A DNA stretch of 64,000 bases from Cytophagales bacterium (lineage in GTDB: Bacteria > Bacteroidota > Bacteroidia > Cytophagales > 172606-1), in contig JAUJNL010000009.1 of assembly GCA_030448185.1 (NCBI GenBank), positions 1 through 64,000 of the forward strand, read 5' to 3'. Every line of letters starts with the position of its first letter. Within the stretch, counting starts at the first letter, position 1. A program made the translations under genes and the position numbers. Under the pieces are notes generated by a model. It was not told the DNA's origin, ran no database searches, and worked only from the letters and a program-made list of their open reading frames with translations. Positions 2,882-62,108 of the stretch are shown piece by piece.

Positions 2882-4789
2882 ATGTGCGGAATCGTTGCTT
2901 ACACTGGATACCGGGAAGCTTACCCGGTGCTGCTAAAAGGGCTAAAACGGCTCGAATACCGTGGGTACGACAGTGCCGGTATTGCTTTATTAAATAATGG
3001 CCTGAATGTGTATAAAAAGAAGGGCAAGGTGACCGGAGAGTTAGAAGTGTTTGTGAAAGACAAGAACCTGAGCAGCACCATTGGTATCGGACATACCCGC
3101 TGGGCTACCCACGGTGAGCCCAACGATGTCAACGCCCACCCGCACTATTCTTTCAATGAAAATCTGGCCATTATTCACAATGGTATTATTGAAAATTACA
3201 GTGCGCTTAAACAGGATCTTATCAATAAAGGACATGTATTTCGCAGTGAAACGGATTCTGAGGTACTGATTCACTTTATTGAAGACATTAAGGAAAATAG
3301 TAACTGTTCCCTGGAAGAAGCAGTCCGGCTGGCTCTGCATCAGGTGGTAGGGGCCTATGCTATTGTCATCATGTCTAAAGATCACCCCGATACACTATTT
3401 GCGGCGCGTAAAGGTAGTCCACTGGTGATAGGGGTAGGCAAGAATGAGTACTTTGTGGCTTCTGATGCTACCCCTATTATTGAGTACACCAATGACGTTG
3501 TCTACCTGGATGACTACGAAATTGCAGTGATTACAAAAAATAAGCTAAGTATTAAAACCATTGAGGACGTTGTAACTACGCCCTATATCCATACGCTTGA
3601 ACTGGAGCTAGAAGCTATCGAAAAAAATGGCTTTGAACATTTCATGTTAAAAGAAATTTTTGAGCAGCCTAAATCCGTCCATGATAGCATGCGGGGCCGC
3701 ATTAATGCCGACGGTGGACGTTTGGTGTTAGGGGGCTTGCGCGAATATTTAAATACTCTGACCAATGCGAAACGGGTTGTGATTCTGGGCTGTGGTACCT
3801 CTTGGCATGCCGGACTGGTGGCAGAGTATGTATTTGAGGAGTTTGCCCGCATACCGGTGGAAGTGGAATATGCTTCAGAGTTCCGCTACCGCAATCCGAT
3901 TATTAATGAAGGAGATGTAGTCATTGCAATCTCCCAATCTGGTGAGACGGCCGATACACTGGCTGCTATTGAATTAGCCAAGTCCAAAGGAGCTATCATT
4001 TTTGGTGTGTGTAACGCAGTGGGCTCTTCGATTCCGCGTGCTACTCATGCTGGCGCCTATACACACGCTGGCCCCGAAATAGGCGTTGCCAGTACCAAAG
4101 CGTTTACGGCTCAGGTAACGGTATTGACTATGATGGCTATTTGCGTGGCAAAGGCAAAAGGTACCATTACGGAAACATTATATCATGAACTGTTGGTAGA
4201 GTTAGAAACTGTTCCGGCTAAGATTCAGAAAATTCTTGATAAGCATAACCAGATCCATTACATCTCTGAAGTTTTCAAGGATGCGCATAACTTTCTGTTC
4301 CTTGGCCGGGGTTATAACTTCCCGGTCGCCCTGGAAGGTGCATTGAAACTGAAGGAAATTTCGTATATCCATGCAGAGGGTTACCCGGCGGCTGAAATGA
4401 AGCATGGCCCTATCGCCCTGATTGATGAGGAAATGCCGGTAGTGTTTATCGCGACCAAAGATAGCTCCTACGAGAAAATCGTATCCAACATTCAGGAAGT
4501 ACGTGCCCGCAAAGGCCGGGTGATTGCAGTCGTTACTGAAAAGGATGAACTCATTCAACGGATGGCTGAATTTGTGATTGAAGTTCCTCACATTCACGAG
4601 GCACTCACGCCGCTGTTGTCAGTTATTCCTTTGCAGTTACTTTCGTACTACATCGCCGTGCTGCGTGGCTGCAACGTTGATCAACCCGCAACCTGGCGAA
4701 ATCTGTCACTGTCGAGTAGTCCAAGGTGGGGTACCTTAATTGGTAGTGAAAGAATAAAAAATAAACTAAAAAGCCTAAACCGGCGCTGA
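2882..4789 (+). CDS. glmS: Glutamine--fructose-6-phosphate aminotransferase
   Basis: MCGIVAYTGYREAYPVLLKGLKRLEYRGYDSAG start; two SIS domains; C-terminal ...CNVDQPATWRNLSLSS. Confidence 0.92.
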   Translation: MCGIVAYTGYREAYPVLLKGLKRLEYRGYDSAGIALLNNGLNVYKKKGKVTGELEVFVKDKNLSSTIGIGHTRWATHGEPNDVNAHPHYSFNENLAIIHNGIIENYSALKQDLINKGHVFRSETDSEVLIHFIEDIKENSNCSLEEAVRLALHQVVGAYAIVIMSKDHPDTLFAARKGSPLVIGVGKNEYFVASDATPIIEYTNDVVYLDDYEIAVITKNKLSIKTIEDVVTTPYIHTLELELEAIEKNGFEHFMLKEIFEQPKSVHDSMRGRINADGGRLVLGGLREYLNTLTNAKRVVILGCGTSWHAGLVAEYVFEEFARIPVEVEYASEFRYRNPIINEGDVVIAISQSGETADTLAAIELAKSKGAIIFGVCNAVGSSIPRATHAGAYTHAGPEIGVASTKAFTAQVTVLTMMAICVAKAKGTITETLYHELLVELETVPAKIQKILDKHNQIHYISEVFKDAHNFLFLGRGYNFPVALEGALKLKEISYIHAEGYPAAEMKHGPIALIDEEMPVVFIATKDSSYEKIVSNIQEVRARKGRVIAVVTEKDELIQRMAEFVIEVPHIHEALTPLLSVIPLQLLSYYIAVLRGCNVDQPATWRNLSLSSSPRWGTLIGSERIKNKLKSLNRR

Positions 4790-4817
4790 ATATGATTTGG
4801 CGCCGGTTTAGGCTTTT
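4769..4817 (+). terminator. 18-bp perfect-stem hairpin overlapping the glmS stop codon
   Basis: AAAAGCCTAAACCGGCGC / GCGCCGGTTTAGGCTTTT; the left arm lies inside the glmS 3' codons. Confidence 0.8.
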
Positions 4818-4928
4818 GGGCTGATACAGCAAAAATTGAGCATTGACTATTGGGAATTTATCTATTACCACGTTAGCTTTCTGTACGGGTTACCTTTCTC
4901 TATTTCCCGTATCAATTGCCAGATACGC

Positions 4929-5088
4929 AGCAATTCCCGGTTTAGAAGATATAACTCTCTAAAAATCAACTGGTTAATAATTTACTTTTTTGTGAATTTT
5001 ATAACTAATTCATTATCAATGAGATATATAACGAGGAAAATTTGACAAGTATTTGTAAATCAAATAGTTATCCAAACCGGGAATTGCT
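4929..5088. mobile_element. MITE-like 160-bp element with 15-bp TIRs and an 11-bp direct repeat
   Basis: TIR AGCAATTCCCGGTTT / AAACCGGGAATTGCT; flanking DR GCCAGATACGC at 4918-4928 and 5089-5099; AT-rich noncoding interior. Confidence 0.75.
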
Positions 5089-5147
5089 GCCAGATACGCA
5101 GGCCTGCATCTACTATCCTCATTTCCAACATTTTAACCGTTTTTATT

Positions 5148-6068
5148 ATGCGCAAAACCGTTTTGCGTTACCTGCCTGTACTGGCAGTACTGGCTGGCCT
5201 GTGTACTTCTGCCTGTAGCAGCAAAGCAGAATATGAATCGAAAAAAATGGCTGAAGCCGACTATGTCTCCTCAACGATAGGATCTAATACCGATACTACC
5301 GCTGTAAGTAGTATAACCCAACCGGAGCGGCAGTTTGTCCGGCAAGCTGACCTGAAGTTCCGGGTAAAGGATGTAGCCCGGACCACGCACACCATTGAAG
5401 ACCTGACGGGAAAGTATGGAGGCTTTATTACTCAGAATCATCTTTCCAGTTCGGTTACGAATACTCACAGCGTACAAATCAGTGCCGACTCTCTCCTGGA
5501 AACTACCGAATATCAGGTAGAAAACAACCTGGCTCTTCGCGTACCCAACCAGCAGCTTGACCAGATGCTGCACGAATTGAGCAGCCAAGTAGATTTCATG
5601 CATTACCGGATCATTAACGCGGATGATGTAAGCTTGCAATTGTTGGAAAACAAGCTTCGGATTAATCGAAATACGGAAGCAAAGCAACGGGTGCAGCAAG
5701 CTATCGACAGTCGAGGTAAAAAACTCGGTGAAAGCCTGCAGGGTGAACAAGACCTACTGGCACTGCAAGAGCGGTCTGACGGAAATGTTATTCAAAACCT
5801 CTCCCTGGCTGATCAGGTAAATTATAGTACGGTTAAGTTGCATATCTACCAGCGTGCTACTGCCCGGCAGGAAAGAGTAGCCGCTGCGGTAGATATGCTT
5901 CCCTACGAGCCAAGCCTGCCTTCCCGATTAGCTGAAGCGTTCTTATCCGGCTGGACTATATTGGAAGCTTCGCTGATTGGCCTGGTTCAGCTTTGGGCAG
6001 TGATTCTACTGGGCTTACTGGCTTGGCTTGGATATCGCCGGTATGGCGTCCGGCTGCTGGGCAAATAG
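5148..6068 (+). CDS. DUF4349 domain-containing lipoprotein
   Basis: Lipoprotein signal (LAGLCTSACSSK), DLKFRVKDVARTTHTIEDLTGKYGGFI, C-terminal TM helix. Confidence 0.75.
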   Translation: MRKTVLRYLPVLAVLAGLCTSACSSKAEYESKKMAEADYVSSTIGSNTDTTAVSSITQPERQFVRQADLKFRVKDVARTTHTIEDLTGKYGGFITQNHLSSSVTNTHSVQISADSLLETTEYQVENNLALRVPNQQLDQMLHELSSQVDFMHYRIINADDVSLQLLENKLRINRNTEAKQRVQQAIDSRGKKLGESLQGEQDLLALQERSDGNVIQNLSLADQVNYSTVKLHIYQRATARQERVAAAVDMLPYEPSLPSRLAEAFLSGWTILEASLIGLVQLWAVILLGLLAWLGYRRYGVRLLGK

Positions 6069-9781: not shown

Positions 9782-10471
9782 ATGAAAAAAATGAATTTGC
9801 AGAAATTAACCAGAGCAATCTTTCTTTCCGGAATTTTCCTCCTAAGTTGTATGGATACCAGCTTTGCCCAGCAACGGATCAGTATCGGCCCGAGAATTGG
9901 AGTGAACTTAAGTGATATGGTTGGAGATATTAATCATCATAGCATGTATCCCGGCTGGAGCGTAGGTGGGTTTATTATGTACAGTGATATCAATCACTTT
10001 GGTATCTCGGGTGATGTGTTATTCTCCCAGAAAGGTTCAAAATTTGAAAACCGTCCGGAAGTAGTAAATAAGGCCAATGTAATCTCAGACTAAAAGCACC
10101 GGATTAATTATCTTGAAATACCGTGTCTAGCACGTTACTTCTTCAATATATAGGGCCCTGTCCGTCCCAATTTGTTTAGCCGACCATCCCTAGCGTTTTA
10201 AATTGAATGCGAAGAAAAAGAGTATACTCAGAATGAAGTTAAAGTAGCTGATACGGATAACAGTGATCAATTCTCCTCAGCTAACTTAGGCGTTACGGCG
10301 GGAGTAGCCTTAAATTTTCAGGTACTGCCTAGTAAACGCATTCTGATTGATGCCCGCTATACTTACGGTCTTAATGACGTAATGCCAAAAATGAATGGGA
10401 TGCAACGGAATTCTACCATTACCCTAAATGCCGCTTACGGCTTTGGCCTCGGTAAACGGTTTAACAAATAG
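9782..10471 (+). pseudogene. Outer-membrane beta-barrel (porin-like) protein, frame-disrupted at ~10090 and ~10155-10200
   Basis: Signal peptide plus RISIGPRIGVNLSDMVGDI...; continuation in other frames NYLEIPCLARYFF ... NLGVTAGVALNFQVLPSKRILIDARYTYGLNDV...AAYGFGLGKRFNK. Confidence 0.7.
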
Positions 10472-10472
10472 T

Positions 10473-10586
10473 TATTGGGTATTAGGTACTCGGCACCGGT
10501 TAATTGATCCTTGGATTAAGAAAAAAGAGCGTTTGGAGAAAACCACTGCTTATATGACCCCGATACCGAGTACCTAATACCCAATA
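10473..10586. repeat. 21-bp perfect inverted repeat filling a convergent intergenic gap
   Basis: TATTGGGTATTAGGTACTCGG (10473-10493) / CCGAGTACCTAATACCCAATA (10566-10586). Confidence 0.85.
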
Positions 10587-10587
10587 C

Positions 10588-11208
10588 CTATTTCAGCGCA
10601 TATACAATGCCCCGGTCCTGCTCCAGTATGGTTAACAGGTGAGCCTCTGCTAAATCAGTCAAAAGTTTCCCGGCACGGCGTTCAGAGACATTAATCAGTT
10701 TAGCATACCGCTTAACGGTAATAAAATCATTGGTTTCCAGGTATTTGAGCAGCATTTTTACGTTAGGTGATTGCAGCAATGCCTTACTCGCTGTTACCGG
10801 TTCCCGGTGGAGTTGCTTCTCCATTGTGCTACCGGCCGGAATGCTCTTGTCGTGCACCCGGATATAGACCTGCCGTTCTCCACTTATATGCCGGACAAAA
10901 TGAGGCTTTTGGTTACTTTCCTCAATTCGAATGAGCAGCACATGCATTTCTTCCTCGTATTGGCTCTCGTACAAAACATCAATAGGGGGACTGCACACGC
11001 TCCCGGCAGCTTGCTCAATTTTACTCATTTCCTCCGCCTCAGAAAGGATGCCGCTTATTTGGCCATCATCTTCCACGCCGATTAATAAAACGCCGCCCCG
11101 GGTATTGGCAAAGGCCGCCAAGGTCCGGGCAATGCGTTGTGCGCTGTCAATTGTGCTTTTAAACTCCAGTGTAATTCCTTCTCCCGCTTCTATCAGTTTT
11201 TTAAGCAT
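10588..11208 (-). CDS. AlbA_2 (Schlafen-like, divergent AAA_4) domain HTH protein
   Basis: EGITLEFKSTIDSAQRIARTLAAFANTRGGVLLIGVEDDGQISGI; C-terminal winged-HTH-like region. Confidence 0.75.
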   Translation of the reverse strand: MLKKLIEAGEGITLEFKSTIDSAQRIARTLAAFANTRGGVLLIGVEDDGQISGILSEAEEMSKIEQAAGSVCSPPIDVLYESQYEEEMHVLLIRIEESNQKPHFVRHISGERQVYIRVHDKSIPAGSTMEKQLHREPVTASKALLQSPNVKMLLKYLETNDFITVKRYAKLINVSERRAGKLLTDLAEAHLLTILEQDRGIVYALK

Positions 11209-29314: not shown

Positions 29315-29424
29315 TGTGTAATGGTAGATTAGTCATTGGCCAATGGTCAGTAGTCACCTTCCTTTGACATTTGATATTAGCTTCGCTGAGAATAGTTCCT
29401 TGTTCGATATTCGAAATTAGTTCT

Positions 29425-29494
29425 GGGTCAATGGTCAGTAGTCATTGGTAAAAGGGCACTAAGGTCAACACTAATGACTACTGACCATTGACCC
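29425..29494. repeat. 22-bp perfect inverted repeat at the 3' side of nuoD
   Basis: GGGTCAATGGTCAGTAGTCATT (29425-29446) / AATGACTACTGACCATTGACCC (29473-29494). Confidence 0.85.
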
Positions 29495-29499
29495 AATGA

Positions 29500-31956: not shown

Positions 31957-32065
31957 AAGCTGGGTTAAAAAAGTAAATGAGTCTATGAGTGAAAATTTTA
32001 TGAGCAGATGCAAAAGAATAGCCTTTAGGTGAGACATTATTCAAACTTTCAGGGGTAAAAGGACC

Positions 32066-32192
32066 GTCATTGCGAACGAGGAACGAGTGAAGCAATCCCG
32101 ACCTGAATAAACAATCATTTCAGTAATTACCAAAAAGATTAGCTTCGCTGAGCTCTTCGAGGTTGCTTCACTCGTTCCTCGTTCGCAATGAC
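32066..32192. repeat. 32-bp inverted repeat (1 mismatch) with ~63-bp spacer
   Basis: GTCATTGCGAACGAGGAACGAGTGAAGCAATC / GGTTGCTTCACTCGTTCCTCGTTCGCAATGAC. Confidence 0.85.
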
Positions 32193-32282
32193 GCTAATTA
32201 TACTTATCGATTCCCATTCGAAGTCAGCTATCCGAAATTCTTTCAATCTTTCTCCCAGAATTTCCAGAAGGGCTTTTTATCA

Positions 32283-32966: not shown

Positions 32967-33169
32967 AAGGTCTACATTGATCCTTGCCGGACGCTTTTCA
33001 CTAAACGGCACCAGACCGGTTTCAGTATAAATGGGTAGTAGGTATTGGGTATTAGACATTGGTCAATTGTTATTCGTTTTTCCTGAATAATCTTTTCCCA
33101 ATGGCTGATGACCGTAGATTAATAATATTGAATATCGAGCAAGAAACTTCAGATGCAGAAGGAAAAGGG

Positions 33170-33318
33170 GTGTACGACAAAATGCAGAGCGTTCATCCGC
33201 ATTTGCAATGCGGATGTGTATAACCAGGCATTTGAAATGCCCTTTTTCTCAGTTCCGCATTGCAAATGCGGAACAACACGAACAAAGTTTAATGGTTGAT
33301 CTGCAATTTGTCGTACAC
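33170..33318. repeat. Three-hairpin repeat family B, copy 2, nested in an outer 19-bp inverted repeat
   Basis: Outer GTGTACGACAAAaTGCAGA / TCTGCAaTTTGTCGTACAC; inner GTTCATCCGCATTTGCAATGCGGATG...GGCATTTGAAATGCC...GTTCCGCATTGCAAATGCGGAACAAC. Confidence 0.85.
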
Positions 33319-33491
33319 CCAGGAAAAGTAAAGGAATAATGACTTTAATATTCGTAATTCCTTGTTTAACATTCGATATTAACAATGCTTAATCGCCCTT
33401 TATACATATTTTAACTAATACCCAATACCTAGTACCTGATACCCAATACCCAACTACATATACTCCCCCAATTCCAGCCAGCGGTCCGACT

Positions 33492-42298: not shown

Positions 42299-42528
42299 TT
42301 CTATATGATTTTACTTGATGTACGAAAAGAGTAATTGGGGAGATAGGTAATTTCTCGCGGATTAACGCAGATTGAACCGCAGATATTCGCGGATAAAAGA
42401 TAAATCTGCGTTAATCCGCGTCCTTATCGGCGGAAATCTGCGAGAACTATTGTCTTAGACGAGCCTTCGGGTTCTCTGCGAAGCTAAAATAAACCTATTT
42501 CCGATTTATCAAGTAAAATCATATAGAA
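42299..42528. repeat. Nested palindromic element, 21-bp outer and 18-bp inner perfect arms
   Basis: Outer TTCTATATGATTTTACTTGAT (42299-42319)/ATCAAGTAAAATCATATAGAA (42508-42528); inner CGCGGATTAACGCAGATT (42356-42373)/AATCTGCGTTAATCCGCG (42403-42420). Confidence 0.85.
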
Positions 42529-61912: not shown

Positions 61913-62108
61913 TTAGGGCCATCGCACCAAATTTGAGGCATTTTAAGGCAAAAGCACCTTAAATGCTTCAAATAACAATTGATAATTTGGGCAACTGACC
62001 ATTTTGTGAACCAATACCAAAAAATTTGGCACAACGTGCATCAGGGTGTACCCGTGAATATTGTGAAGGCACATTCAAAATGCCTCAAATTTGGTGCGAT
62101 GGCCCTAA
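61913..62108. mobile_element. MITE-like 196-bp element, 32-bp perfect TIRs, 7-bp TSD TTATGGT
   Basis: TTAGGGCCATCGCACCAAATTTGAGGCATTTT (61913-61944) / AAAATGCCTCAAATTTGGTGCGATGGCCCTAA (62077-62108); TTATGGT at 61906-61912 and 62109-62115. Confidence 0.85.

Follow-up and report, generated by a model that had tools for sequence, protein, structure and literature searches.

An insertion in the probable DUF4349 leader

The element studied here lies between glmS and a DUF4349 gene, in the part of the window (the whole 64-kb stretch of Cytophagales DNA that was analysed) that contains the following features:

4769–4817, plus strand: terminator-like hairpin behind glmS, with 23-nt arms that are 91% complementary
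4888–4915, plus strand: ECF-sigma-type promoter-like motif GGTTACCTTT-N11-GTATCAA, intact, conserved before DUF4349 in three same-genus genomes
4919–4927, plus strand: left copy of the target-site duplication, CCAGATACG; 9-bp duplications also occur at C36, C186, C194 and C80 and in other phyla
4928–5089, no strand: MITE, non-autonomous, 162 bp, with ends set by blastn against C80 (a full-length copy, 91%) and C167 (a partial one at a contig end)
4928–4943, plus strand: left TIR CAGCAATTCCCGGTTT, 16 bp perfect (19/20 with its neighbours), shared without change by three full-length ISs of the genome
4964–4976, plus strand: IHF-like site AATCAACTGGTTA in the MITE, a sequence match only
5058–5070, plus strand: second IHF-like site AATCAAATAGTTA in the MITE, likewise a sequence match only
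5074–5089, minus strand: right TIR, from the inverted-repeat search
5090–5098, plus strand: right copy of the target-site duplication, CCAGATACG, from flank comparison
5148–6068, plus strand: DUF4349 gene (Pfam PF14257, E=3.3e-22)

The hairpin probably separates glmS from the DUF4349 transcription unit, as judged from its sequence. The element is non-coding and has the termini CAGCAATT...AATTGCTG; blastn alignments with its genomic copies stop exactly at 4928 and 5089. The TIRs described in the original prediction are real, both on direct reading of 4900–5110 and in a mechanical repeat search, which independently returned inverted arms of 20 nt (4927–4946 and 5071–5090, 95%). The exact TIR core is found twice in the 64-kb window, at the two ends of the element only. 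The G+C content of the element is 28% versus 47% for the window, and it holds short frames only and no ORF of note, in agreement with its earlier description as AT-rich and ORF-free. While the element itself was thus recognized correctly, its boundaries, placed within 4918–5099, and its length of 160 bp have to be revised to 4928–5089 and 162 bp. Likewise, it does lie upstream of the DUF4349 ORF, but the distance from its right end to the ATG (5148) is 58 bp rather than 60 bp.

The flanks had been read as carrying an 11-bp direct repeat. A direct repeat is present, and is in fact 14 nt long and 100% identical in the mechanical search (TGCCAGATACGCAG, at 4917–4930 and 5088–5101). Because the repeats overlap, the border between element and target is undecidable from one copy, and it is the other copies that decide it. 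Given element ends at 4928 and 5089, the target duplication is 9 bp (CCAGATACG), not 11 bp. The repeat exceeds 9 bp because the host bases beside the duplication (TG before, CAG after) equal the element's own termini; the longer direct repeat is a 9-bp duplication plus chance matches between host and element ends.

Copies of the element in its own genome

The genome assembly (6.4 Mb, 207 contigs) is 75% complete. A second full-length copy, 91% identical to the element, is located at C80:138-299 and is flanked on both sides by its own 9-bp duplication, TACCTATTA. A third copy, C167:1-106, is cut by the contig end. The absence of other copies, raised with the original prediction as a point that would weigh against it, was thus not what we found, there being two further copies in the genome (91% identity). 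The three MITE copies counted in this 75%-complete, 207-contig assembly sit at unrelated sites. Outside its own genome, no copy was found among 97 related genomes, which gave only weak AT-rich hits and, in G002, the shared TIR.

Both IHF-like sites are kept in the C80 copy and one in the C167 fragment. The IHF consensus WATCAANNNNTTR has only five matches in the whole window, both strands included. When the element was shuffled 5000 times with dinucleotides preserved, 9 shuffles reached two matches, with a consensus that is enterobacterial and was picked after viewing the sequence; we regard these candidate sites as a lead only.

Other repeats are present in the window. A further MITE-like element, at 61913–62108, has GGGCCATCGCACCAAATTTGAGGCATTTT ends and inverted arms that match perfectly over 32 nt; the genome holds five copies of it (90–100%). 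At 42299–42528 lies an element whose inverted arms (TTCTATATGATTTTACTTGAT) are perfect over 21 nt; inside it is a CGCGGATTAACGCAGATT-type repeat that recurs at many genomic sites. Four more stretches, 32055–32203, 10466–10593, 29338–29495 and 33034–33450, hold CATTGCGAACGAGGAACGAGTGAAGCAATC-type hairpin repeats together with GGTATTGGGTATTAG- and CAATGGTCAGTAGTCATTGG-type repeats.

Insertion sequences with identical ends

The exact TIR also bounds three ISs in the same genome, of 1364 bp (C36), 1388 bp (C186) and 1366 bp (C194), whose 9-bp duplications are ACCTTACCT, ACACGAGAT and ACGTTGATA respectively. All three encode a DDE transposase with a DDE_Tnp_1 domain (PF01609). With the short copies and three ISs having the same ends and 9-bp duplications, the parentage is clear at the sequence level. 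We infer that the transposase of a DDE IS of ~1.36–1.39 kb with identical 16-bp ends probably moved the MITE in trans. We also considered the MITE as an internal deletion of the IS and rejected this, as only the TIRs are common to both.

As assembled, the transposase frame is interrupted in all IS copies seen in the genome. Many of the differences between the near-identical C36 and C194 ISs are single-base indels, often in homopolymer runs. The housekeeping gene glmS shows a comparable defect: the ending RNLAKSVTVE, usual for glmS, is out of frame after the CCC run at 4685–4687, and the stop lies at 4717–4719. In view of these single-base, homopolymer-type indels in both glmS and the ISs, part of the transposase decay is probably an assembly error.

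Related elements occur in same-genus genomes. G002 has an IS of the parent kind, which is 1402 bp long and lacks a clean duplication. Also present there are a 245-bp element that is an internally deleted form of this IS and a 143-bp MITE whose duplication reads CCGCGGTTA / CCGCGATTA. G001 carries elements of 271–735 bp whose ends match these fully or almost fully, and three of these elements are bordered by exact 9-bp duplications. The transposase family also includes a second IS lineage, which has other ends, CAGCAATTTCTCTTTTGGC; it lies in G000:C153 at about 66300–67700 (L076 from 820), and such ends are also found around the intact G001 transposase.

A transposase family that crosses phyla

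G001, an uncultured Cytophagales MAG (CADCTQ010000238.1), encodes an intact relative that is 431 aa long. This transposase has 299 relatives in GTDB contigs, and the best 80 of these 299 come from Bacteroidota, Chloroflexi, Desulfobacterota, Cyanobacteria, Planctomycetes, archaea and others; none was found in phage records. We searched for any TIR plus duplication around the transposases of the relatives. Ends starting with CAGC, together with exact 9-bp duplications, were recovered from Lewinella, Saprospiraceae, Phaeodactylibacter, Chlorobiaceae, Caldilineales, Anaerolineales, Oligoflexales, Desulforhopalus and one gammaproteobacterium, while the remaining loci gave nothing or weak pairs only. 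Such ends and duplications across phyla lend strong independent support to a CAG boundary and a 9-bp stagger. In 28 aligned transposases, the catalytic region carries the motif R-x-R-W-K-I-E-N-E-T-F-N-T-L-K-N-Q, whose catalytic partners are likely to be D131 and D220.

The original prediction attributed the direct repeat to IS4/IS231-type transposition, for which duplications of 10–13 bp would be typical. With a direct repeat that is readable as 11 bp and a transposase whose DDE_Tnp_1 catalytic domain IS4 also uses, this is an understandable assignment. However, the ends of the copies lie at CAG, not AGC, and the other clean insertions have 9-bp rather than 10–13-bp duplications. The YREK motif of IS4 (tested as Y-x2-R-x3-E-x6-K) is absent from 28/28 transposases, which have Gly/Ala at the Tyr position and Leu at the Lys position, and the NCBIfam IS4 model gave 23.8 bits, far under its cut-off of 115. 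We thus consider an IS4/IS231-type MITE with an 11-bp target duplication highly improbable; the proposed search for an IS4-family element with the same TIR did uncover ISs with identical TIRs, but gave no support for placing them in the IS4 family.

The NCBIfam ISAs1 model gave a weak hit of 22.7 bits on an interrupted frame, far under its cut-off of 70 bits; there was also a weak match to DDE_Tnp_1_assoc. No ISAs1 hit came from the intact protein of G001. As for ISNCY, it is a holding class; its ISMae2-type elements, which have CAG ends and 9-bp duplications, would fit. A text search on the ISNCY subgroups ISMae2, ISDol1, ISLbi1 and ISPlu15 yielded no usable table of ends and duplications. 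One relative annotated as ISNCY, Gloeothece verrucosa WP_013335080.1, is 31% identical to the G001 transposase across 92% of the latter; other cyanobacterial relatives were found as well, but the relationship to the Gloeothece protein is distant. The sequence evidence makes the family ISNCY-like at most.

The empty site and a conserved promoter-like motif

The leaders of the DUF4349 orthologues in G001 and G002 carry no insertion: 162+9 bp are missing, 1–2-bp indels aside, and the stretch aligned with the joined flanks of the window runs from GTATCAA to GGC(A/G)GGCC(T/C)GCC. The empty-site comparison proposed earlier therefore favours a mobile element, both orthologous leaders being empty at the insertion point.

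The same comparison drew attention to the motif upstream. In its strict form, GGTTACCTTT-N11-GTATCAA, it has a single occurrence in each of three same-genus genomes, invariably before DUF4349, and variants precede DUF4349 in the more distant genomes G003–G006 and G059. G001 and G002 each have three copies of a looser GGTTACC-N14-GTAT near a single ECF-like sigma gene (PF04542). The copies are arranged alike in the two genomes, and one of the three lies directly before the sigma gene in both. The positions of the looser motif are 1274(-), 1501(+) and 1858(+) in L228, and 1139(-), 1501(+) and 1848(+) in L221. In G000, a motif adjoins the frameshifted orthologue of the sigma gene. This distribution suggests that the motif is likely an ECF-sigma promoter and that DUF4349 is likely part of an autoregulated ECF regulon.

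The insertion starts 12 bases beyond the end of the motif, which is unbroken; therefore, the element most likely lies within the transcribed 5′ leader of DUF4349 and lengthens it. To create the insertion, the transposase would have staggered its cut by 9 bp in the DUF4349 leader, with gap filling yielding the CCAGATACG duplication. Transcription would then start just before the element and read through it, so that the mRNA leader would grow by 171 nt and gain a TIR–TIR stem near its 5′ end. That the motif acts as promoter and that the element is read through are each what we infer to be most likely. With the MITE, the leader is predicted to fold at -51.4 kcal/mol (z -4.05), mostly through the TIR stem, as compared with -3.0 kcal/mol for the leader without it, and the region around the DUF4349 ATG is unpaired in this prediction.

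Origin of the element and its effect on the DUF4349 gene

Collectively, the element is short and non-coding with TIRs, these TIRs are identical to those of an IS, the duplication has the length of the parent's, and multiple copies are dispersed in the genome. It is a genuine MITE, ordinary in kind, and its parent family is identified. The earlier label of 'MITE-like' is borne out by the other copies, the ISs with identical TIRs, the matching 9-bp duplications and the empty site in sister genomes. Our preferred reading, to which we assign a probability of about 0.92, is a MITE that the transposase of the ~1.36–1.39-kb DDE IS in the same genome moved in trans into the DUF4349 leader. Against it stand the low copy number (three, in a 75%-complete, 207-contig assembly), the interrupted frames, as assembled, of all IS copies in the genome, and the sharing of TIRs only between MITE and IS, so that a simple internal deletion does not apply. 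A structured RNA or regulatory hairpin that is not a mobile element could account for the low folding energy (z -4.05), but has next to no likelihood given the target duplications, the dispersed copies at unrelated sites, the ISs with the same ends and the empty site in sister genomes; a search of Rfam with the element gave no match.

Different effects on expression can be envisaged. An AT-rich element in the 5′ region, 58 bp upstream of the ATG, could supply an outward promoter to DUF4349. We regard this as very unlikely: none of the patterns TTG-N17-23-TAnnTTTG, TAnnTTTG and TAnTTTG, i.e. of the Bacteroidota type, is present on either strand of 4700–5200, and the conserved ECF-type motif lies just upstream. 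The suggestion that the element may supply or disrupt the promoter of the gene thus finds no counterpart here, since the motif at 4888–4915 is intact and the element contains no Bacteroidota-type TAnnTTTG. Alternatively, the strong TIR stem in the leader could silence or attenuate DUF4349 by ending transcription or hindering translation, although some 130 nt separate its arms, no U-run follows them, and the ATG region is unpaired in the predicted fold; such an effect seems unlikely. Somewhat more doubtful still is the idea that the insertion gave structure to a simple, ECF-sigma-controlled leader and that the MITE is a portable 5′-leader module in an ECF regulon; its TIR stem near the 5′ end, perhaps with the IHF-like sites, would then alter how stable the DUF4349 mRNA is or how it is expressed.

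Among the closest known systems are bacterial MITEs in general, for example a 187-bp MITE of Microcystis, which was tied to an ISL3-type transposase (PMC11448079). Both elements are short and non-coding, form a stem-loop, and match an IS of the same genome in TIRs and duplication length. In contrast to the Microcystis MITE, the element described here has another parent transposase and a 9-bp instead of an 8-bp duplication, and was seen in three copies.

The main reading thus provides a transposase family that crosses phyla and is poorly classified with a clean MITE–parent pair, for which the 9-bp duplication is defined, and corrects a tempting misreading of the 11-bp repeat as IS4/IS231. In addition, the comparison exposed a conserved ECF-type motif that, in this Cytophagales group, precedes DUF4349 and also adjoins an ECF sigma gene.
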